Origin: Nitrospirota bacterium
Lineage (GTDB): Bacteria > Nitrospirota > Thermodesulfovibrionia > Thermodesulfovibrionales > UBA6898
DNA: 62,381 bases
Assembly: GCA_004321925.1 (NCBI GenBank)
Contig: SCQH01000041.1
Coordinates: 1-62,381, forward strand
Reading direction: 5' to 3'
The notes under the pieces were generated by a model, which saw nothing but the letters and a program-made list of their open reading frames with translations, had not been told where the DNA came from and did not search any database. Of the stretch, positions 8,830 through 51,752 are shown piece by piece. The position numbers and the translations under genes were made by a program. The first letter of the stretch is position 1, and each line of letters starts with the position of its first letter.

Positions 8830-11800
8830 TCACTGGTTTACCGGTAGGACAAAGATAAACCTGCTCCCTTTTCCTTCTTCACTTTCCACCCATATCTTTC
8901 CGCCGTGAAGTTCGATCAAACGCTTACAGAGGCTGAGGCCAAGCCCTGTACCGGCATACTTCCTGGTCAGACTTGTCTCTATCTGCTGGAATGGCTGGAA
9001 AAGCCTCTGCTGGTTTTTCATCGAGATGCCGATGCCGGTGTCGGCGACAGAAACTTCAACAAAGTTTTTGCCGGGTTCATAGTTCAAAGCTGATAGTTCA
9101 CTGCTTACATCGGTGCTGCCATGAGCTATGAGCCATGAGATGTCCACCAGGCGCGCAGCGACACGCACACTCCCCCCATCAGGCGTAAATTTGAAGGCAT
9201 TGCCTAAAAGGTTCACGATAACCTGTTTCAGCTTCTTCTTGTCAGCAGTAATGGTTGTTATCGTATCGTCGATTTCCGTCGTTGCTTTAATCGTATGTTT
9301 TAATGCCTTCTCCTTGAACATACCGAGAGAAGTCTCAATGATCTCTTTCAGGCTGACCATCCCGGGCTCAAACTCCAGCTTCCCTGCCTCGATCTTTGAC
9401 AGGTCAAGGATATCGGTGATCAGGGTCAGCAGGTGACGGCCGCTCTCGGATATATCGTTGAGGAATTCCTTTTGCTTGTGCGTGACAGGGCCTGCCATGC
9501 CCTGCTGCATGATATCGGAGAAGCCCATGATGGCATTCAAAGGAGTCCTGAGCTCATGGGACATGTTGGTCAGAAAATCTGTCTTAGACCTGCTTGAGTA
9601 ATCAGCCTCTTCCCGCCTCAGTACCAGTTCCTGGTTCACGCTATGAAGGTCCAGGTTTGCGTCCTCAAGCTTTCTTGTCCTTTCCTTCACCTTTCCCTCG
9701 AGCTCTTCAATAAGCCGCACATTCTCAATAGCAATTGCGGCCTGGTTGGCAAATATCTGGCATAGTTTCATCCTGTCGGGAGTAAAATAGTTGGGGCTGT
9801 AACTATAAAAGGTCAAAACTCCGGAACACTTGTCACGTGCATAGATAAGCGGTACCGACATAATATCAACATAGCCCCTCTTTTGTGCTTCTGATCTCCA
9901 TTGAGCAAATAAGGCATCGTTAATATTTTCCTTGAAGATCGCTCTGCCCTTAATGGCCATACCGGTCGGACCCATACCTGCGGGGGAATCGTCCCAGGTG
10001 GCCCTGATCGTTGCAATATAGCCGTCCTCAAACCCGGCGTGCGCGACCGGAATTACCTCGAAATGTTCTTCCCCGATCACACCAAGCCATACCATTTTCA
10101 GGTCAAACACCGTGTAAATGATATTACAGATCTCCGCATAGATGTCTTTGAGGTTCGTAATGAGCATCAGGGAATCGGATGCCATGCTCAGGCTGGTGAG
10201 CTCCGTGCTGTAAGAAGTCAGAGCATCCTCAGCCCTTTTACGCTCGATGCCCAGGGCAATGACATCAGCCACCGATGCCAGCGACGACATCGTCGCTTCT
10301 GTGATCTGCTTGCGGCTGAACATCGCCATGACCCCGACCAGCCTGTCCTGCACGATCAGCGGATACCCTGCAAACGCGACCATTGCTTCTTCTATTGCCC
10401 ATTGCTGATCGCCGACCTGGGGATCGCCGATGACCTGGTTGGTAAGATGGGGCTTACGTTCTTCGGCAATAAGTCCTATTTTGAACATGCCCACCGGCAC
10501 GCGGCCGTGGGCTCCGTCGATATGAGTATACATCCCGGCGCTCGCCTGCAACTCCAGCACCTTATCTTCTTCATTGAGCGTCCAGATCCGTGCAAATGCA
10601 GCATCAAGATGCTGCACCATGGCCTCAGAGCAGAACTGCAGGGTTGTTCGCAAGGCACCACCCCGGGTAAGGGCAATACCGATCTCTGCGCCTAAGGCAG
10701 CCTGATGGACCCGTTCGTTCAGCTCATTCTGAGCCTGCTTGCGCTCGGTTATGTCCTGATTCACGCCGTGCGTCTTTACCGTGCGGCCTTGGGCATCCTT
10801 CTCTATGCGGATATTAACGCTGATGTAGCCCGTAGAGCCATCGCCGCGGAGGATGCGATGATCCAACTGGCCCATGTAGTGCGGGTCTGTCGTCTCCAGG
10901 TTCTTCTGAATTTCAGCGCCGACCACGGCCCGATCCTCCGGAAAGAGGAACCGCTCGGCGTAACGCGCAGAGGGCATGACATAACCGCCTTCCTGCTCGG
11001 CCGTCGTGCGAAAGAGCGCATAGAACTGATCGTTGAACGTAAACTGATCGCGGATGACGTCATAATCCCATGCACCCAGCCGGGCAATCCTCAACGCCTC
11101 GGCCAGGCGGGCCTCGTTCTCCGCCAGCGAACTCTCCGCCAGTTTGCGCTCGGTGATATCCTCAAAAATAGCGACGAATTGCTCCCGGCGCGGGCTGTAG
11201 GCTGCGACCTGATAATGCCGTTTAAGCTCGCTCGAATAATTAATAAAATTGATCGGCTCGCCGGTCAATGCCACGCGGCCATAAGTATCGATCCAGTATG
11301 GTTCAGTACCCGGCATAACCTCAAGCACTGTTTTGCCGAGGAGATCTGCCGCACGGAGTCCGGTCAGCCGCTCAAAGGCCGGGTTGATTTTCAGAAAACG
11401 ATAGTCAACCGGCTTGCCTTTCTCGTCACAGATGATTTCGTGCAAGGCAAAACCCTCGATCATGCCGTTGAAAAGATCGGCAAACAGCCTTTCACTCTCG
11501 TGCAGCTTTGCCGCCGTCCTCTCCCGCCGCTTTTCGTAATTCCAAATGCCCACGGTTGCAACGGTAATGATAGAGATCAGGACAATCAGGATCCCCATGA
11601 AGAGTTGTCTTGATTTTTCCCAATTTCTCGCCATGCTCTTCCCTATAAGAACGTCTAATTTCTCAGCATCTCCGAAAATCCCATCGAAAACAGCGTCAAA
11701 CTTCTGATCGGCAGCCGAACCTATTTGGGATTTATCAGGGGCCTGCAGACGCTCCAAAGCGGTCGTTTTCAACGTCACAAGATTCTGCCTGATCGATTCA

Positions 11801-39931: not shown

Positions 39932-41164
39932 ATGAAACTTTACAGGATAATACTTGTCGCTGGTTTGATCTTTACGCTTTGTGGTGTATCTCTTGCAGCA
40001 GGCCCCAAAAGTGTCTGTATAGACTGCCACAAGAAAGTTACCCCCGGTGTTGTGCAACAGCACCTTGAGGGCAAGATGTCGAAAAAGGGCGTTGACTGTT
40101 CATCCTGCCATGGGTCGGAGCACAAGAAGATGGATGACTCGAAGCTCGCCAAAATGCCTACCCCTGAGACCTGCTCAGGCTGTCACAAGAAGCAGACAGA
40201 CCAGTTCAAGGCAGGTAAGCACAATCTTGCATGGATCGCATCGAGTTCCATGCCGATGATGGGCCATCAGCCCTCTGCTATAGCAGGAGGCGACTACAAG
40301 GGCTGCTCAAGCTGTCACAGAATAGGTGTCCAGCCTGACGCTGAGAAGACAGGCTATCGATATGGTCATGCTCAGTGCGATTCATGTCATACAAGACATT
40401 CATTCAAGAAGTCCGAAGCCCAGGACCCCAGGGCATGCCAGACCTGCCATATGGGATTCGATCATCCCCAATGGGAGATGTACTCAACCTCAAAGCATGG
40501 GACTATCTGGCAGATAGAGGGCAAGGGCGGCAAAAGGGCCCCGACCTGCCAGACCTGCCATATGAGCGGAGGAGACCACAATGTTATGACCTCGTGGGGC
40601 TTTCTCGCTGTTCGGTTGCCTGAAGATGACAAGGACTGGATGAATGACAGGGTGGCTATACTCCAGGCACTCGGCGTTCTTGATGAGAAGGGCACTCCTA
40701 CTGCAAGGCTCGACCTTGTGAAGGCCGGGAAGGTCGCGCGTCTTACAAAGGAAGAGTTCCAGAAGGAGCGCGACAAGATGATAGGCATTTGTTCCAAGTG
40801 CCACGGAAAATCCTATGCAACGGCCCAGCTCGATGCAGGAGACAGGGTAGTGAAGGATGTTGACAAGGTTATGGCAGAGGCGATACGGGTTGTTCAGGCA
40901 CTCTATAAAGATGGCATACTGCAGAAACCCGCAGACTGGACCTTTGCGCCAGACCTGCTCCAGTTCTATGAGGCCAGGAGTTCAGTTGAACAGGAACTCT
41001 ATGTCATGTTCATGGAATACAGGATGAGGGCGTTCCAGGGTGCGTTCCATATGAACCCGGATTACATGCATTGGTACGGTTGGGCGCCTATGAAGGAGAC
41101 ACTTCAAAAGATTAAGGATGAGGCGGAAAAAATGAGAGCTGAAAAGTCTTCAGCAAAAAAATAG
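39932..41164 (+). CDS. Octaheme c-type cytochrome, hydroxylamine-oxidoreductase-like
   Basis: This 410-residue exported protein has a signal peptide ending SLA-AG and exactly eight CxxCH heme sites, at residues 29, 56, 81, 125, 149, 169, 206 and 287. The segment SGGDHNVMTSWGFLAVRLP and the C-terminal FQGAFHMNPDYMHWYGW are characteristic of HAO-family octaheme proteins. Family members oxidise hydroxylamine or hydrazine, or reduce nitrite/hydroxylamine. Whether a tyrosine crosslink forms a P460 heme, which decides the direction, cannot be told from sequence; no dedicated partner quinol oxidase or cytochrome c554 is adjacent. AAAAGGAGA precedes the ATG. Confidence 0.88.
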   Translation: MKLYRIILVAGLIFTLCGVSLAAGPKSVCIDCHKKVTPGVVQQHLEGKMSKKGVDCSSCHGSEHKKMDDSKLAKMPTPETCSGCHKKQTDQFKAGKHNLAWIASSSMPMMGHQPSAIAGGDYKGCSSCHRIGVQPDAEKTGYRYGHAQCDSCHTRHSFKKSEAQDPRACQTCHMGFDHPQWEMYSTSKHGTIWQIEGKGGKRAPTCQTCHMSGGDHNVMTSWGFLAVRLPEDDKDWMNDRVAILQALGVLDEKGTPTARLDLVKAGKVARLTKEEFQKERDKMIGICSKCHGKSYATAQLDAGDRVVKDVDKVMAEAIRVVQALYKDGILQKPADWTFAPDLLQFYEARSSVEQELYVMFMEYRMRAFQGAFHMNPDYMHWYGWAPMKETLQKIKDEAEKMRAEKSSAKK

Positions 41165-41238: not shown

Positions 41239-41853
41239 ATGGAAAAGCAGAGCATTTTCAGGATCATATTTGGATTGGCGGTTGTTGTGGGGATGTATAC
41301 GATACCTGGTATTGCGGGAGCGCACTGCGATACCCTCGATGGACCGGTCGTGATGACGGCAAAGGCAGCGCTGGGAAAAGGGGACATCACGCCTGTGCTG
41401 AAATGGGTGAAGAAGGAAGATGAAAAAGAGATCAGGGACCAGTTCGACAAGACACTTGCTGTAAGGAAGCAGTCCAAAGAGGCCAGGGAACTTGCCGATA
41501 TGTATTTCTTTGAAACCCTTGTCCGTATTCATAGGGCGGGCGAGGGAGCCCCTTACACCGGCCTCAAGGCCGCCGGTGTGGTCGAGCCTTCAATCGCCGC
41601 CGCTGACAAGGCACTGGAAAGCGGCTCTGCGGACAGTCTTGTGAAGATGGTGACCGCTGCCGCTGCAAAAGGCATCCGGGAGCGGTTTGCGCATGCCGCG
41701 GAGACTAAAAAGCATGCAGACCATGGGGTTGAATACGGCAGAAAGTTTGTTGCCGCCTATGTAGAGTTCACCCATTATGTCGAGAGGCTTCATATGGATG
41801 CAGAGCGCCCATCAGGCCACGGGAAGGCAGAACCTGCGGGACATATCCATTAA
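41239..41853 (+). CDS. Exported DUF6448-like protein
   Basis: This 204-residue protein has a signal peptide ending GAG/GAH and begins its mature part with AHCDTLDGPVVMTAK, a conserved pattern of the DUF6448 family. It is helical and ends His-rich (SGHGKAEPAGHIH). No heme or metal cluster motif is present apart from the His residues. AAAGGAG precedes the ATG. It lies between the octaheme cytochrome and the heme-motif sensor, so a periplasmic role in the same pathway is likely but undefined. Confidence 0.7.
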   Translation: MEKQSIFRIIFGLAVVVGMYTIPGIAGAHCDTLDGPVVMTAKAALGKGDITPVLKWVKKEDEKEIRDQFDKTLAVRKQSKEARELADMYFFETLVRIHRAGEGAPYTGLKAAGVVEPSIAAADKALESGSADSLVKMVTAAAAKGIRERFAHAAETKKHADHGVEYGRKFVAAYVEFTHYVERLHMDAERPSGHGKAEPAGHIH

Positions 41854-41892: not shown

Positions 41893-44800
41893 ATGAGGAA
41901 TCTCGTGTCTTTCAGGTCCCTGGCAGCTAAATACATTTTTATGAGTTTGATCATCCTGCTTTTTTTCGCTGCCTATTCCCTTGCCGTCCTGGTCTTTGTA
42001 TATTTTATGAATGGGGATGCAAAGAAGATAAACCTTGCCGGCAGGGAGAGGATGCTCACCCTTGATTTTACATCGCACCTGCATTTTATAACGATCAGTA
42101 AGCCTTCCTCGGAAAGAGAGATCCATGCAAAAGGCGCTGAAAAGGCGATGGACGAATACGAGGAGATATTGTACGCACTCAAGAACGGCAGCGATAAGCT
42201 CGGACTTGAACCTGTCCATTCCCATGACCATGCGGCAATATCACAGCTGAAGGAACTGATAGACCTCTGGCAAACCACCCAGAGGCCCCTGCTGCGCAGC
42301 ATTCTCAGGAGTCCTGCAGCCGGAGGGAACGAGTCATGCAATGCCTGTCATTCAGCCGTCCGTGATAATACTGGCAAAATAGAGGCCTTGGTAAAGCATA
42401 TTGAGACGCATCATGACAGAGAAATAAGTCATTTCAATACTGCAGTCTTCTCGGCAAGCGGGTTGTTAGTTGCCATGACAATCTTCCTGTTTGCATTTGC
42501 AAGAAAGAGCCTTATCAAACCCGTACAGAGCCTGAAATATGCCGCGTCAGAAATTGAAAAGGGGAACTTTGGCGTCAGTGTGGACGTAAAGAGCAGGGAT
42601 GAGATAGGTGAACTCAGCGACACATTCAACAGCATGTCGCTTCGCCTGAAGATGCTCTTCAGCGAGCAGGAGGGGCATCTTTATGAAATGAACATGCTGA
42701 ACGAGATCGCACGGGTGGCAAGTCAGTCCCTCGATCTCTATATCATGCTCGGCCAGGTCATGGACGCGATACTGCAACAACCCGCATTTGCACGGGTGGG
42801 CAAGGGGGCGGTTTTTCTCGCTGATCCCGACAGCGGCGTACTCAGGATTGCCGTTGTGCGCAACTTTTCCGAGGCGCAGAAAGAAATGTGCGGCGTTCTG
42901 AGGCCTGGTGAATGCCTGTGCGGGCTCTGCTTCCGGGAAGGAGAGGTTATTCTGACGAAACAGAGTATGGGAGATGAACGGCACTCAATGACCTATGTGG
43001 GGATGCAGGAGCACGGACACGCGATCCTGCCGCTCAAGTCGCGTGGAAACATTCTCGGGGTCCTGAGCTTTTATCTTCCGGCGGGTGTTACGCTGCAGCC
43101 TGAGGAACAGAAGCTGTACCGTTCGATCGCCGATATTGTCGCTGTTTCAGTCCAGAATGCGCTCAATCACCGTCAGGTGGCGATGCTTGCCCAGGCGCTC
43201 GAAAGCAGCATGGATCTGATCGTCATCATAGATGCGGAGGGAAATATTTTGCATGTCAATCCACAGGCTGAAAAATATCTCGGTTATACGCACGATCAAC
43301 TGAAGGGTAAACACGTGTCTTTCATGCGGATCAGGCGCGGTTCTCAGGCGATGTGGGAGGATATTATTGCGCAGACCAAGATCTGCGGCAAATGGCAGGG
43401 CGAGGTCATCACCGTAAGAAAAGACGGGTCCGAATATCCTGTTCTTCTGTCCACGTCGCTTGTTAAGTACGAGACCAATGCGGTTATCGCGCTGATCGGC
43501 ATTGCACGAGACATTACGGAACAAAAGAGCAGTGAGGAAGCCCTGCGCGAGAGCGAAGCTCGCTACCACCTGTTGTTCGACCTGCTGCCTTATGGCGGAG
43601 AGGTATTGGATGTCGAAGGCCGCATCGTCGACTGCAGTATCAGCGATGCCAGGCTCCTGGGCTATGATGAGGACGAACTGATCGGAAAGCATATCCTCGA
43701 ACTGCTGCATCCCGCTTCTGTAGCAGAGTTCCGACAGAAGTTTCCGACACTCATGAAAGGCATAAATGTCGAAACTCAGGTGAAGATGATACGGAAAAAC
43801 GGGGTTATTATAGATGTGCTGCGCGCGGCCCGGCCCATCATGAATTCTGAGGGAACTGTCACGGGAGCTCTTGCTCTGAGTGTAGACATAACCGATAAAA
43901 TAAGGGCGGAAGATGAATATCGGAGGCTTCAATCGCAGTTCCTTCAGTCTCAGAAGCTGGAGTCCATAGGACGGCTGGCAAGCGGCATTGCACATGATTT
44001 CAATAATATTCTGTCTGTTATCATCGGCTATAGTGATCTTAGCCTCAGGGAGCTGCCTCCCGACTCCCCACTTCGGGCGTCATTTGACATCATCAGTGAT
44101 GCAGGTCTGAAGGCCGCGGCACTCACGCGGCAGCTTCTTGCGTTCAGCAGAAAACAGACGCTTGAATTAAAAGTGCTCAATCCTAAAGAGATCATCGAGA
44201 ATATGGTCAAAATGCTTGGCCGGATGATGGGCGAAGACATAGTAATGGATCTGAGTATGCATTCGACGCGCTATATATTGGCTGACATCGGCCAGATTGA
44301 GCAGATACTTATGAACCTCGTTGTAAATGCAAGAGACGCCATGCCGTGCGGCGGCAGGCTGATACTAAGTACGGAGGATTCGAGAATCGACGAAAATTAT
44401 GCACGTGGGTATGAAGATGTGAAGCCCGGGGACTATGTTCTTCTGTCGGTCACCGATACCGGCACGGGGATGAGCAAGGACGTGCAGGAGCATATATTTG
44501 AGCCGTTCTTCACCACTAAAGAGCAGGGGAAAGGCACAGGTCTTGGATTGGCGACAGTCTATGGCATTGTTAAGCAGCACAACGGTTACATCTGGGTCTA
44601 TAGCGAGCCGGGGAAAGGAACGACCTTTAAGGTCTTTTTGCCGGCGGTTACCGGGACGAGATCGTCAACGCATGCAGAGGTGGAAGGTCCGCTTGAACGG
44701 GGCAGCGAAACGATCATGGTCGTGGATGACGATCCTGCCGTACGAACAATGATCAGAGATGCGCTTCTTCAGCTCGGATATCACATAATTACCGCTTCCT

Positions 44801-45075
44801 GCGGTGAAGAGGCGTTACAGATCCTGGCCACGGAAGAGCGGAAACCGGAACTTCTCTTGACGGATGCGATCATGCCGCGGATGAGCGGAAAGGAACTTGC
44901 CGATGCAGCGCTTAAGATACTGCCCGGCATGAAGATTGTCTTCATGTCAGGATACCCTGATGAATCCATAGCTCATCAGGGTATCCTGATTCCAGGAGTT
45001 GTGTATATCCAAAAGCCGCTAATGCTTGACTCACTCGCCAGAAAGGTGCGGGTGGTGCTTGATGGGACTGGCTAA
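41893..45075 (+). CDS. Hybrid sensor kinase with NarX/PilJ-like P-box and periplasmic c-type heme motif
   Basis: This is a 1060-residue kinase. TM1 is at about 16-38. A helical periplasmic domain starts [20 protein letters not shown], matching the NarX/NarQ P-box that binds nitrate/nitrite, and carries CNACH at 149-153, a covalent heme c site. TM2 is at about 185-205, followed by HAMP, GAF (with an [15 protein letters not shown] Cys cluster), PAS and PAS. HisKA has H701 in IAHDFNN, then HATPase (DTGTGM, GTGLGLA) and a C-terminal receiver (LLLTDAIMP). It should sense redox state, NO or N-oxides in the periplasm. It is separated by 40 nt from the DUF6448-like gene. Confidence 0.92.
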
Positions 45076-45112: not shown

Positions 45113-45244
45113 ATGAAAAGACCGGTTGTGGACTACGAAACATGTATAGGTTGTGGCTCCTGTGTCGAAATTTGTCCCGCGGTATTTGAACTGCGCAGTT
45201 GCACGGGAAAGAAGCCGGAACGGTCTGGACTTTTAACGGAGTAA
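45113..45244 (+). pseudogene. Truncated 4Fe-4S ferredoxin
   Basis: The ATG at 45113 follows AAGGAGG by 7-8 nt. The 43-residue product begins MKRPVVDYETCIGCGSCVEI, then CPAVFEL, which is the first half of a small single-cluster ferredoxin with CxxCxxC and CP. The sequence then turns into unrelated residues and stops; the distal half is missing and does not appear in other frames. It lies between the two P-box kinases, so it is probably a recombination remnant, although its ribosome site is intact. Confidence 0.7.
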
Positions 45245-45264
45245 GAGGGATAATAGGTCAAGAT

Positions 45265-48200
45265 ATGAAGTTTATTAATACACTTACCGGCAAGTACATC
45301 ATCGTCAGTCTCGTCATCCTGTCAATTCTGAGCGCCTTCATCTCCGCAAGCGTCACGTTCACCCGTCACATGGCGGGCGAGGCAGCGACGATCAATTCCG
45401 CGGGGCACCTCCGGTTCCGGTCCTATCAGATGGCCTGGCTTGCGCAGAGATATGCTGAGGAGGCATTTTCGCCGGAGATGAGGGCGCAGTCACAGGCGGA
45501 CCTCGGCTTTCAGATACAGCAATACGACAAGCTCATCCAGGAGCTCACGACCGGCAGCGCTGAGGTCAACACCAAGCCGATCAAGCATTATGCCGAGACA
45601 GTGCCGCTGCTTGAAAAGATCAGGGCAGAATGGGAACGAGACCTCAAACCGCCGCTCCAAAAGATATCCGTCCTCCCGGCAAATGCACAGGAAGCAAAGG
45701 TGCGGGCCCTACTTACCTCCTATGACGCCCGGATCCCGGGCTTTGTGGATAATGTGAACAGGTTTGTAAAAGCGCTCGAGCTCCATTATGACGGGGAACT
45801 GCGGCAATTCGTTCTGCAGAGGTTTCTGATCCTCGTTGTTTTTACGACCGCTGCGCTGTTAATCGTCCTCTATGTCCGGAAGAAGATCGTACTCCCCATG
45901 AAGCTGCTGACGCGCAGCGCCACGCAGCTTCAGAGCGGGGACTTCGATGTCCAGGCGCCTGCCCTGAGCAGCGACGAACTCGGGACTCTGGGCCGGGTGT
46001 TCAACGAAATGGCCGGCAGTCTGAAGACGCTGTTTGCCGAGAAGTCAAGGAAGCTGCGGGAGTTTGAAGCCCTGAATACGATCTCCCACGCCGCGAGCGA
46101 GTCCCTTAGTGTGGACATCATGGCCGGAAAGATCATGGATGCGATACTGGGCCTTGAACCGCTGGCCCTGGAGAAAAAGGGCGCCATCTTCATCAATGAT
46201 AAAGACAAGAAAATGCTGAGGCTCGTTGCATCGAGAAATTTCAGTCTTGAACAGGTCTCCGGGTGCGGCGTCGTCCCCCATGGGGAGTGTCTCTGCGGCA
46301 TCGCGGCGGAACAAGGCAAGGTCCTTCTGTCCGACAGCAATGTCCTCGATGCGCGGCATACGAAAGTCTATCCCGGCGCAAAAGAGCACGGTCATATCAT
46401 CCTGCCGCTCAGGTCCCGGGGCAAGATGATCGGCATCCTCTGCCTCTACCTTCCCGAGGGCGTGATGCCGTCTGATGAGGATACGCGTCTCTATGAATCG
46501 ATTGCCGATATCATTGCCGTCGCCCTCCAGAACGCGATCAACCACCGGCAGGTGGCCATGCTCGCCCAGTCGCTCGACAGCAGCGGCGACGTGATAGGCA
46601 TTACCGACACCGAGGGCAGGATGATCCACGTAAACCCGGAGGCGACAAGGGAACTCGGCTACTCCGTGGCTGAGTTGATCGGGCAGCCTGTTTCTCTGAT
46701 GCAGTCGCCCAATAATCCTCCGGGGCTTGGAGAGGAAATCTTTAGAAAGTCGCTCGAAGGCGGATGGCTGGGCGAGGTCATCAATAGAAGAAAGGACGGC
46801 ACTGAATATCCGGTTTTGCTTACTACCTCGCCGGTAAGAGATGCTGAAGGACAGATAATCGCCCTGGTGGGAATCGCCAGGGACATATCGATTCTCAAAC
46901 AGGCGGATGCTGCACTGCGCGTGTCAGAGGAAAAATACCGAAATCTTGTGCAAGAGATCAACGACGGTCTTTTTGAGATGGATGAGCGGGGGGCCTTCAC
47001 ATTTGTCAACAACGCCCTCGCGCGCATTCACGGATATGAAAAGCCGGACGACCTTATCGGCAAAAACTTCATTGAATTGACGCCTCCCGAGCGCCGCGAG
47101 GCCCTTCTTCAGGATTTCAGGAAGAATATCGAAAACGGTCAGGCGCCGGGCATATTGGATATCCCCATTGAGAGGCCGGACGGGAGCAGGGGCTATATCC
47201 AGGTCCATCCTGCGAATGTTGTCGAAAACGGCAGGCTCATCGGGACGCGGGGGATCGTTCGGGACATCACGGAGCAGAAGAAAACTGACGAGGCGTTGCG
47301 AAAGTATGAATACATCGTTTCTTCATCCAGCGACCACCTGTCATTTCTTGACAGGGATTTTGTCTATCAGGCAGTGAATGCAAAGTATCTTGACGCTTTC
47401 GGCAGGAGGAGGGAGGAGATCGTCGGTCACGGCGTGTCGGAGCTTCTGGGTGTGGAGACATTCGATCGGATGATCAAGCCAAATCTGGAGCGTTGCCTTG
47501 CAGGGGAAACAGTCCGGTACCAGGCCTGGTTCGATTTTCCCCGGACCGGCCGTCGCTACATGGATGCGATCTATTCTCCCTATCGGCATCATGAAGGCGG
47601 GGTCAGCGGCATCGTCGTGAGCTCCCGCGACATCACCGACCAGAAAAAGAGCGAGGATTTGCTCAGAAGGAGTGAAAGCAGCCTGATAAACGCCCAGCGC
47701 ATTGCGCACATGGGCAACTGGGAATGGGACATTGCCAAGAACGAGGCCTATTGCTCCGAGCAAATAGACCGTATATTCGGGTTCAAGCCCGGGGAGTTTG
47801 GCAGGAATTATGAAGCGCTCATGAAGACGGTTCACCCCGATGACCGTGAGATGGTCGAGCAGGCAATGCGCGAAGCTGTTCAGGGAATACGCCCCTTGAA
47901 TCTCGACCGCCGCGCGCTCCTGCCGGACGGCCGCGTACGCGTCTTGCACGAGGAAGGGGAGGTTATTTTTGATGCAGATGGGAAGCCGGTGAGGTTGGTC
48001 GGGACGACCCAGGATATCACGGAGCGAAAGAAGGCAGAGGAGGAACTGGGTGAGCGTGTGAATCATGCAAACCTGGAGGCGGAGGTCGGTTTTGCGCTGA
48101 CACGGGGAGATGATTTTCGCGCAATGTTACAGCGGTGCACTGAATCCATTGTGCGTCATACAGGGGCGGCCTTTGCCCGCATCTGGACATTGAACGAAGC

Positions 48201-49833
48201 CACAGAGACTCTTGAGCTTCAGGCAAGCGCAGGCATGTATTCTCATATAGACGGCGGACACAGCAGGGTACAGGTGGGGAAATTCAAGATAGGGCTGATC
48301 GCACAGGAGCGAAAACCTCATCTGACCAATAATGTTATTGGCGATTCCAGAGTGGGAGACCAGGATTGGGCAAGGCGCGAGGGCATGGTCGCTTTTGCAG
48401 GATATCCGCTTATTGTTGGAGAAAGACTAAATGGCGTTGTGGGGATGTTCGCCAAAAAGGCCTTAAGCCGGAGCACGATGGATGCTTTGGCTTCCATAGC
48501 CGCCGCCATCGCCCTTGGGATTGAACGAAAATACTCGGAAGATGCGCTGAAGAAATATACCTCTGAACTGCTTGCGCTCGCAGAAGCGTCCAATGTAATT
48601 ATTGCTTCCACGGAGAACATCTATGAGACGGTCTGTCATGTTGCTGTCGTAAAATTCGGACTTGAGTCCGTCTGGCTTGGTCTGATTGAAAAAGACGGCG
48701 GTATAAAGATTGTCTCCGGGACAGATCCTGAAGATAGCTGTCTTTCGGATCTAAGGACCGGAACAGACCGTCTGATGTATGAAACATGTCCGATAGTAAT
48801 TTCAATAAAGACAAAAGCGCCGCAAACGATAAATAATCTGCTCAAAGACCCATGTCCGGGCCCATGTGGAGGCAGAAGGGCTTTAAACAGGGGCTACAAA
48901 TCATTAATGGTCGCGCCCTTGATCAATGCAAGCGCGGAACAGACCGGAATAATGGGCTTTTACAGCAAGACTGCCGGCTTCTTCACGTCAGAAAAGAATA
49001 AGCTGCTTACGGTCTATTCAAACCAGGTCTCAGGTCTGCTGGAAAACAGGCACCTCATTGAAGGACTCGAAAACAAGGTGAACGACAGAACGCAACAGCT
49101 TGAAATTGTAAGGTTTCAGGCGGAGGAGGCGAACCGGGCCAAGTCCGATTTTCTCGCGAACATGTCGCATGAACTGAGGACGCCGCTCAACGCAATCATC
49201 GGGTTTTCCGATTTGATGAGAAACGGCATGACCGGCCCACTTACTGACGAGCAGGCCGACTTCCTCAACGATATAGCTGTGTCCGGCAAGCACCTCCTCA
49301 GTCTGATCAACGACATCCTCGATCTGTCGAAGGTGGAGGCCGGCAAGATGGAACTTGAGTTGGGTGAGGTCAATGTGGAGGAGCTGATCGAAAAAAGCCT
49401 CTCAATGTTTAAGGAGAAGTCCCTTAAGCATGACATTCAGATCAGACTCGATATAGACGGCACGCTTCAGGGCATGACGGCCGATGAAATCAAGCTGAGA
49501 CAGGTTCTGGTGAACCTGTTAAGCAACGCATTTAAGTACACCCCGGATCACGGAACTGTAACGCTCCGGGTGTGGAGAGAAGGGAAAGATCAGGCAGGGT
49601 TCAGTGTTACCGACACCGGGCCGGGAATTAAAGCGGATGACCTTCCGAAGCTCTTTCAGCCCTTCCAGCAGCTCGAAATGACTATTAGCGCGAAGCGGCC
49701 GGGCACCGGTCTGGGTCTGAATCTCTGCAAAAAGTTCGTAGAGCTGCATGGCGGTAAAATTTGGATTGATACTGAGGAGGGAAAAGGCAGTACGTTTTCC
49801 TTTGTCATTCCTCTGAAGAAAGAAGGTCGCTGA
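45265..49833 (+). CDS. Multidomain sensor kinase with NarX-like P-box, HAMP, GAF, PAS x4, GAF x2
   Basis: Starting at ATG 45265 (a TTG 66 nt upstream would run through the ferredoxin remnant) this is a 1522-residue kinase. A periplasmic helical domain starts GEAATINSAGHLRFRSYQMA, a close P-box match to NarX/NarQ, and it has no heme motif. Next come TM2, HAMP, a GAF with GCGVVPHGECLCG, four PAS domains (DISILK, DITEQK, DITDQK, DITERK ends), two GAFs and HisKA with H1302 in [11 protein letters not shown]. The HATPase has NAFKYTPD, DTGPGI and GTGLGLNL. It lacks a receiver, and the next gene is a stand-alone receiver that overlaps its stop (TGATG). Confidence 0.92.
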   Translation: MKFINTLTGKYIIVSLVILSILSAFISASVTFTRHMAGEAATINSAGHLRFRSYQMAWLAQRYAEEAFSPEMRAQSQADLGFQIQQYDKLIQELTTGSAEVNTKPIKHYAETVPLLEKIRAEWERDLKPPLQKISVLPANAQEAKVRALLTSYDARIPGFVDNVNRFVKALELHYDGELRQFVLQRFLILVVFTTAALLIVLYVRKKIVLPMKLLTRSATQLQSGDFDVQAPALSSDELGTLGRVFNEMAGSLKTLFAEKSRKLREFEALNTISHAASESLSVDIMAGKIMDAILGLEPLALEKKGAIFINDKDKKMLRLVASRNFSLEQVSGCGVVPHGECLCGIAAEQGKVLLSDSNVLDARHTKVYPGAKEHGHIILPLRSRGKMIGILCLYLPEGVMPSDEDTRLYESIADIIAVALQNAINHRQVAMLAQSLDSSGDVIGITDTEGRMIHVNPEATRELGYSVAELIGQPVSLMQSPNNPPGLGEEIFRKSLEGGWLGEVINRRKDGTEYPVLLTTSPVRDAEGQIIALVGIARDISILKQADAALRVSEEKYRNLVQEINDGLFEMDERGAFTFVNNALARIHGYEKPDDLIGKNFIELTPPERREALLQDFRKNIENGQAPGILDIPIERPDGSRGYIQVHPANVVENGRLIGTRGIVRDITEQKKTDEALRKYEYIVSSSSDHLSFLDRDFVYQAVNAKYLDAFGRRREEIVGHGVSELLGVETFDRMIKPNLERCLAGETVRYQAWFDFPRTGRRYMDAIYSPYRHHEGGVSGIVVSSRDITDQKKSEDLLRRSESSLINAQRIAHMGNWEWDIAKNEAYCSEQIDRIFGFKPGEFGRNYEALMKTVHPDDREMVEQAMREAVQGIRPLNLDRRALLPDGRVRVLHEEGEVIFDADGKPVRLVGTTQDITERKKAEEELGERVNHANLEAEVGFALTRGDDFRAMLQRCTESIVRHTGAAFARIWTLNEATETLELQASAGMYSHIDGGHSRVQVGKFKIGLIAQERKPHLTNNVIGDSRVGDQDWARREGMVAFAGYPLIVGERLNGVVGMFAKKALSRSTMDALASIAAAIALGIERKYSEDALKKYTSELLALAEASNVIIASTENIYETVCHVAVVKFGLESVWLGLIEKDGGIKIVSGTDPEDSCLSDLRTGTDRLMYETCPIVISIKTKAPQTINNLLKDPCPGPCGGRRALNRGYKSLMVAPLINASAEQTGIMGFYSKTAGFFTSEKNKLLTVYSNQVSGLLENRHLIEGLENKVNDRTQQLEIVRFQAEEANRAKSDFLANMSHELRTPLNAIIGFSDLMRNGMTGPLTDEQADFLNDIAVSGKHLLSLINDILDLSKVEAGKMELELGEVNVEELIEKSLSMFKEKSLKHDIQIRLDIDGTLQGMTADEIKLRQVLVNLLSNAFKYTPDHGTVTLRVWREGKDQAGFSVTDTGPGIKADDLPKLFQPFQQLEMTISAKRPGTGLGLNLCKKFVELHGGKIWIDTEEGKGSTFSFVIPLKKEGR

Positions 49834-50210
49834 TGACAGAGAGAATACTTATCGTTGAAGACAATGCGATGAACATGAAACTCTTCCGTTTTTTGCTTGT
49901 GACGGCGGGCTTTGAAGTAATCGAGGCGGACGACGGAGAGAGCGGGATGGAACTGGCAAAGATGTATATTCCCGACCTTGTGCTTATGGATATACAGATG
50001 CCGAAGATGGACGGCCTGACAGCCCTGCAGAACCTGAGGGCCGATGGGTCAACAAGGCGCATTCCGGTGATTGCGACGACGTCTTACGCTATGAAGGGCG
50101 ACCGGGAACGGTTTCTGACTGAAGGGTTCACGGATTATATCTCCAAGCCGATTGACAACGACGAGTTTCTGAAAACGGTAAAAACAACGCTGGAAAGGTA
50201 TCATGGATAG
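49833..50210 (+). CDS. Single-domain response regulator (DivK-like)
   Basis: This 125-residue receiver consists of RILIVEDNAMNMKLF, phospho-acceptor Asp in LVLMDIQMP, Thr/Ser in VIATTS and Lys in YISKPID. With no output domain it shuttles phosphate or acts by protein contact. It overlaps the kinase stop and is followed after 24 nt by the REC-HD-GYP gene, so the three probably form one phosphorelay operon. Confidence 0.9.
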   Translation: MTERILIVEDNAMNMKLFRFLLVTAGFEVIEADDGESGMELAKMYIPDLVLMDIQMPKMDGLTALQNLRADGSTRRIPVIATTSYAMKGDRERFLTEGFTDYISKPIDNDEFLKTVKTTLERYHG

Positions 50211-50234: not shown

Positions 50235-51752
50235 ATGGATATAACCAGACCGAAAATATTATGTGTTGACGATGAGCCAGCTAATTTGAAAATTCTTGAG
50301 AAGCTTCTTGTCTCAAACGGCTATGAAGTGCTCAAGGCCAAAGACGGCGAGGAGGCCCTCGACGGGATCGTGAAAAGCATGATAGACCTTGTGCTTCTGG
50401 ATGTGATGATGCCGAAGATCGATGGCTTCGAGGTTTGCCGGAGAATCAAGCGGGACGAACGGCTCAGGAACATACCGGTCATCATGCTGACGGCGCTCTC
50501 CGCCACGTCAGACCGGATCAAGGGCATCGAGGCGGGGGCTGAAGACTTTATCTCAAAGCCTTTTGACCAGGGCGAGGTGCTTGCGCGCATCAGGATGCTT
50601 CTCAAAATGAAGACGCTGAACGACCGGCTCAATCATGCTTATGACGAGATCAACATGATGACGAACTTTGGAGAGGCAAGCATCCAGTCCTTTGATCCGC
50701 TGAATTTCGCTTTTTTCTCAAAGGTGGACGCCGTTGTGGAGCATATCATTCGCAAAGCAGCCGGCACCTTTGATGAGCCGCAGCTGGTCATTGTCGGCGC
50801 GCCGGATGAATGGCAGGCATGGCAATGGCTCCAGTACGAATATGTATCTTCAAAGCTCAATAGTCTGCCGCTGAATCTGGATCTCCGGCAGGGCCTGAAC
50901 ATACCGGCCCGATCGCGGACCGTCTTCTATAATGAGAACGACCGCGACCAGCCGGAATTCCGATGGTTTGTGGAGACCCTCGCTGGCGCTGGGATCGCCG
51001 TTGCCAACATGGCATGCTATCTCAGTAAAGCACTCTGCATTTTTGCGGTGAATTACGGCAGGGACGTCACCCGCCATGACGCCTCGGTCCTGAACAGTTT
51101 TGTGATGCAGACCCTGTTCCTGAAGTCCCTGTCCGGCCAGATACGGGAGACGGAACATGCCTTTGAATATACGGTTTATGCGCTTGCGAGGGCGTCAGAG
51201 GCAAACGACGAGGATACCGGCAACCACATTCTGAGGGTCGGTGAATATTGCAGCGCCATAGCCGCCGGGCTGGGAATGCCGAAGGCTTTTGCTGATGCAA
51301 TCTGTCTTCAGTCAACATTGCATGACGTTGGTAAAATCCATGTCCATCCGGATATTCTTAAAAAACCCGGCAAACTTACACCAGAGGAGTGGGCCGAGAT
51401 GAAAAAGCATACGACTTATGGCGCAACGATCATCGGTGAGCAGCCCAGGCTTGCCATGGCTCAACGCATCTCTCTATCACATCACGAACGCTGGGACGGG
51501 GGCGGCTATCCGAATGGGCTCAAGGGAGAACATATTCCAATTGAAGGAAGGATACTTAATATCGCGGACCAGTACGACGCCTTGCGCAACCGGCGTGCAT
51601 ATAAGCCGGCCTTCGACCATCAGACTACATGCAGGATCATTATCGAAGGCGACGGGAGGACTTTGCCGTCACATTTTGACCCGGATGTTTTGCGGATGTT
51701 TAAGGAGTCCCATGGCCGATTCGAGGAAATATACGAAAAAAGGAAGGATTGA
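50235..51752 (+). CDS. REC-HD-GYP c-di-GMP phosphodiesterase
   Basis: This is a 505-residue protein. Residues 1 to about 125 are a receiver ([46 protein letters not shown]). About 130-310 is an uncharacterised linker domain. About 315-505 is HD-GYP, with H363-D364 in [30 protein letters not shown] (G424-Y425-P426) and [15 protein letters not shown]. It should hydrolyse c-di-GMP when phosphorylated by the neighbouring sensors. AGGAGGGC precedes the ATG. Confidence 0.93.

Follow-up and report, generated by a model that had tools for sequence, protein, structure and literature searches.

The described heme-c sensors Tll0287, GSU0582, GSU0935 and DcrA are of the Cache/PAS type (PMC12889525, PMC8396549, PMC3831638). 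Also named in PMC8396549 are MsmS of M. acetivorans and, in G. sulfurreducens, eight two-component proteins with heme motifs, to which this Cache/PAS assignment does not extend. In the sCache_heme group (DUF3365/Tll0287, GSU0582, GSU0935; PMC12889525) an exported sensor of Cache alpha/beta fold, for which an inserted cytochrome fragment has been proposed, carries a CxxCH, which is followed by TM2-HAMP and by signalling modules. Tight NO binding has been reported for a heme-c Cache sensor, and NO-sensor properties have been shown for one sCache_heme protein (PMC12889525). DcrA of Desulfovibrio vulgaris, a signal transducer with periplasmic heme c, has a chemoreceptor output; it is placed among PAS-type heme-c sensors and described as a redox and oxygen sensor in PMC8396549. 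NarX and NarQ (IPR029095; 5iji, 5jef, 3ezh) consist of TM1, a four-helix bundle with a P-box GxxR on helix H1, TM2, HAMP, a GAF-like domain and a kinase; in both, nitrate is bound by the G-x-x-R core of the P-box, which nitrate chemoreceptors also conserve (PMC8199190). PilJ, NarX and helical bundles are not mentioned in PMC12889525, nor is CXXCH mentioned in a review of NarX/NarQ, whose heme passages concern GAF domains. No report of heme c on a PilJ/NarX fold was found in a literature search that most subscription papers lay outside, and priority is unproven.

In the window (the whole 62,381-nucleotide stretch of DNA analysed here), a hybrid sensor kinase of 1060 amino acids has the same TM1, helical bundle, TM2 and HAMP order as NarX and NarQ, and bears a CxxCH motif in the bundle. 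The features of this kinase and of the signalling genes that follow it are these:

41893..45075 (+), hybrid sensor kinase: TM1, PilJ/NarX-type sensor with the heme motif, TM2, HAMP, GAF, PAS, PAS, HisKA, HATPase, REC
41932..42006 (+), TM1, about residues 14-38; hydropathy peak, within model helix 10-68
42013..42054 (+), P-box [14 protein letters not shown], residues 41-54, with G50-x-x-R53
42076..42084 (+), H62 and H64, possible distal ligands of the heme, towards the upper end of helix H1
42124..42126 (+), H78, towards the upper end of helix H2, a possible distal ligand in their place
42337..42351 (+), CNACH, residues 149-153, predicted site of heme c attachment, where helix H4 begins
42361..42369 (+), R157 and N159, fixed in the heme clade only (alignment)
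42442..42507 (+), TM2, about residues 184-205; hydropathy peak and model helix
42499..42651 (+), HAMP, residues 203-253 (Pfam)
42889..42921 (+), GAF cysteine motif C333-x6-GE-C341-L-C343 (sequence)
43969..45048 (+), HisKA, HATPase_c and C-terminal REC, the output part (Pfam)
45199..49833 (+), second PilJ-type sensor kinase, without CxxCH (Pfam and alignment)
49833..50210 (+), CheY-like receiver (Pfam)
50235..51752 (+), REC-HD-GYP response regulator ([11 protein letters not shown]), likely a c-di-GMP phosphodiesterase (Pfam); homologues lie beside heme kinases

Codons 42337-42351 of the open reading frame encode C149-N-A-C152-H153, and its translation together with hydropathy analysis confirmed the sequence-only reading, which had placed CNACH between TM1 and TM2. 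The motif can be assigned to an exported domain because of the positions of the TM1 and TM2 hydropathy peaks, of HAMP and of the PilJ match (PF13675, residues 39-141). This match scores 36.7 bits with the whole protein and 39.6 bits with residues 1-259, against a curated cut-off of 26.6, and all ten heme-clade members that were scanned also match PF13675 (at E 0.1). The two cysteines of CNACH are the only ones in the sensor domain. The GAF domain has a cysteine motif of its own, C-x6-GECLCG, which might bind a metal or Fe-S cluster or act through its thiols; it recurs in the second kinase of the window and is common to heme and non-heme relatives (L033, L034, L039, L040, L210, L213, L044).

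An AlphaFold2 model of residues 1-259 (mean pLDDT 93; helices 10-68, 73-98, 113-139 and 145-222) shows a four-helix bundle between two transmembrane helices, followed by HAMP. In this model the CxxCH occupies the opening turns of H4, the last helix of the bundle, at the membrane-distal end, and H4 runs without a break through TM2 into HAMP. The best matches among solved structures are NarQ (Z 16.3 over 218 residues, 3.2 A), McpN (15.4), PilJ (15.2) and NarX (12.4); the four-helix receptors MCP2201 and Vc1313 likewise score Z 15-16, so that NarQ is singled out not by the fold alone but by sequence, the profile of A4 matching NarQ at 1.7e-26 with the P-box aligned. Class II cytochrome c-prime is a four-helix bundle with CxxCH in the last helix, near its C-terminus. 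The motif of the window sensor is at the start of the last bundle helix; no cytochrome c-prime is among the 50 fold matches listed.

Homologues were sought in 295 genomes of the phylum and then in 230 genomes of the class. Eighteen homologues, 37-61% identical to the window kinase, make up with it a set of 19 sequences that all have CxxCH at the same spot; absence of the motif from all homologues, which would have counted against the sequence-only reading, is thus not what the alignment shows, the motif being kept in 19/19 clade members. Of the relatives without CxxCH, which include the neighbouring kinase at 45199, one is 41% identical (L013) and the others are between 37% and about 21%. In a tree computed with the motif columns left out, the 19 rows with CxxCH (window included; 0/29 other relatives) form one side of a branch with support 97/97, and the motif needs one change. 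A twentieth member, L043, has CNRCH in a gene (9105-9584) that looks broken, being split by a frameshift; the clade gene of L007 also looks broken, with an in-frame TAA just ahead of the motif. The members span about ten families of one phylum, two of them (L005 and L014) outside the class of the window, and the kinase is uncommon, occurring in roughly 20 of the 230 genomes of the class. PilJ relatives were found in other phyla, with no further CxxCH members among the matches listed. Six other CxxCH kinases (L046-L050, L052) match residues 146-252, in alignments that begin at or near the CxxCH and extend through TM2-HAMP; homology was rejected, the sensor part upstream of the CxxCH being unaligned.

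Several residues besides C149, C152 and H153 are fixed in the heme clade and not in its relatives: A155, R157, N159, E88, Y89, L93, Y94, L125 and Q130. R157 is present in 19/19 clade members and N159 in 18/19, where the non-heme relatives mostly have H/Q and Y, respectively; position 152 is tyrosine in 23/24 non-heme relatives. The spacing between W126 and E164 is 38 residues in 19/19 heme members and also in nine non-heme members, so no insertion is required to account for the motif. Towards the other face of the putative heme, H62, H64 and H78 occur together in the window and in five related members (L136, L005, L007, L147, L148). Residue 64, which would lie at about the level of the CxxCH as judged from helix positions in the model, is H, M, K or Y in 17/19 members, R or A also occurring; there is no invariant distal ligand among the 19. 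The P-box core G-x-x-R is kept in 16/19 members, including the window (G50, R53), while three have lost G50 or R53 yet keep CxxCH. It had also been claimed from the letters that the CxxCH shares its domain with a NarX/PilJ-type P-box, and this too is supported: the pairing is conserved in the clade and stands on a NarQ-like fold. None of the 19 members matches the strict McpN N-box, [IVL]-[ND]-x-A-G-x-Q-R-M-L-[ST]-Q (PMC6381276), so that nitrate binding is unsure.

The described systems each share part of this arrangement. NarQ, the best structural match, has no CxxCH at the aligned place. To our knowledge none occurs in NarX either. The window kinase differs further from NarQ/NarX in having HisKA, two PAS domains and REC; since its dimerisation domain is HisKA PF00512, with no HisKA_3-type DHp domain found by Pfam, it is kin to them by its sensor domain and not an orthologue. 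McpN and PilJ share both Pfam domain and fold with the window sensor, but McpN binds nitrate at the N-box, which in its strict form the window kinase lacks. We know of no heme reported for McpN or PilJ. The sCache_heme proteins share the exported sensor and the placing of CxxCH ahead of TM2-HAMP, but theirs is an alpha/beta fold and that of the window an all-helical bundle, with the motif at ungapped columns of helix H4 and no insertion evident. The Tll0287-like profile PF11845 has no match in the window kinase (E 0.01) or in the clade members scanned (E 0.1); it does have matches on other contigs of the same genome, one Tll0287-like domain lying over the cut-off.

Five matches of PF01578, a cytochrome c assembly family, lie in the genome. 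It also encodes an NrfA-family protein, and no narG lies over the family cut-off in it; no nitrate respiration genes were found beside heme kinases among the neighbours annotated. Upstream of the kinase lies the gene for an octaheme cytochrome (39932-41164, 8 CxxCH, PF13447), and between the two one for a DUF6448 protein (41239-41853). Copies of the octaheme cytochrome, 48-87% identical, occur in 44/295 genomes of the phylum, and above expectation in those with a heme kinase (9/13 against 35/282; within the order 7/9 against 28/91, p 0.008, uncorrected for kinship). The two genes adjoin in the window only, however, and in L044 the octaheme cytochrome adjoins a non-heme PilJ kinase. A functional unit of heme kinase and octaheme cytochrome was therefore rejected, adjacency not being conserved in the 295 genomes; the suggestion from the sequence-only reading that the sensor might follow electron flow from this cytochrome is unsupported, and any link between the two is weak.

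Downstream, the CheY and REC-HD-GYP genes of the window come after the second sensor kinase. Elsewhere a REC-HD-GYP homologue lies no more than three genes from the heme kinase itself (L035, L037, L038, L040, L042, L054, L209), often with a CheY as well, and in L211 (5203-7062) a single 620-residue protein joins heme-PilJ, HAMP, GAF and HD-GYP with no kinase. The recurring neighbour and this fusion point to c-di-GMP as the probable output for some of the clade. Elsewhere in the clade, L041 (50-1111) encodes a protein of heme-PilJ and HAMP in which no kinase domain is recognised, adjoining several Mrp/NADH-dehydrogenase-type antiporter subunits, and L034 (4379-5272) a protoglobin-PsiE protein, another possible gas sensor, two genes from its heme-PilJ kinase.

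The explanation we favour, with reasonable rather than high confidence, is that the sensor is a PilJ/NarX-type bundle in which each subunit holds a single covalent heme c where H4 begins, with the P-box anion site kept on H1, and that a change at the tip signals to the kinase. In its favour are the single-clade retention of CxxCH and of the residues fixed with it, the constant W126-E164 spacing, the model and its structural matches, the P-box core, the c assembly and NrfA-family genes, the HD-GYP partners and fusion, and the tight NO binding of a heme-c Cache sensor (PMC12889525); against it count the variable distal ligand, the missing strict N-box, the absence of a narG over the cut-off and the confinement of the members found to one phylum. 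That the window sensor carries covalent heme c is very probable, and that the heme serves in sensing is likely; because the whole family keeps the attachment site, its members probably read a second chemical signal, for example nitric oxide or redox state. To name NO as the main ligand is a guess, and one that could readily be wrong. By analogy with NarX/NarQ the sensor would be dimeric. Going by what is established for c-type cytochromes, their maturation machinery would attach heme to the exported domain at C149 and C152, and H153 would be the proximal ligand. The sixth position would be open or weakly held, in the window by H64 or H78 and in other members by M or K, and NO or a redox change could then displace the upper end of H4 against H1, a movement that would run down through TM2 into HAMP and on to GAF, PAS and HisKA. 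Nitrate or nitrite, through the P-box below the heme, could be a second input. The signal would leave by phosphotransfer to the fused REC here, and in many relatives to CheY and REC-HD-GYP, hence to c-di-GMP.

Other explanations can be set against this. The heme might report the redox state of the periplasmic cytochromes, being reduced by a respiratory cytochrome and signalling through a change of spin or ligand with no gas ligand. The position at the tip in the model would expose it to periplasmic cytochromes, H62, H64 and H78 of the window and the five related members would suit a six-coordinate heme, the octaheme cytochrome co-occurs with the kinase as given above, and DcrA is described as a heme-c sensor of redox state and oxygen (PMC8396549). 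The isolated adjacency of the octaheme gene and the variable second ligand speak against this explanation, and we consider it unlikely, though a serious contender. A structural heme, with sensing by the P-box anion only, would agree with retention of the P-box core in most members, but sister sensors manage without a heme motif and the three members lacking G50 or R53 retain CxxCH, which makes it improbable.

CxxC can also act as a redox switch. Heme attachment is not provable from the motif alone, and the two cysteines and the histidine might instead form a thiol-disulfide or metal (Zn, Fe) site. Against this stand the exact CxxCH spacing, the exported location, the invariance of H153 along with both cysteines (19/19), the co-fixation of R157 and N159 and the c assembly genes in the genome, so that such a site is quite improbable. 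A chance CxxCH without function has no point in its favour: given how frequent C and H are in this protein, 0.0003 such motifs are expected in the 146-residue domain, and retention of the motif in every clade member refutes it.

A bolder reading of the covalent heme c would be an independent second origin of heme-c sensing, in which substitutions in H4 made a nitrate-type bundle into a dual detector, of N-oxide anions at the P-box and of NO or redox state at the tip heme, feeding c-di-GMP; the chances of this seem to us a little short of even. If heme c is indeed carried on a NarX/PilJ bundle, covalent heme sensing would gain a new scaffold, and the site apparently arose by substitution, as against the inserted cytochrome fragment proposed for sCache_heme. 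Since the NarQ structures show how such a bundle signals, coupling of a cofactor at the tip to kinase output would be directly testable. Also at stake is whether one domain combines an input of nitrate or nitrite with one of NO or redox state.
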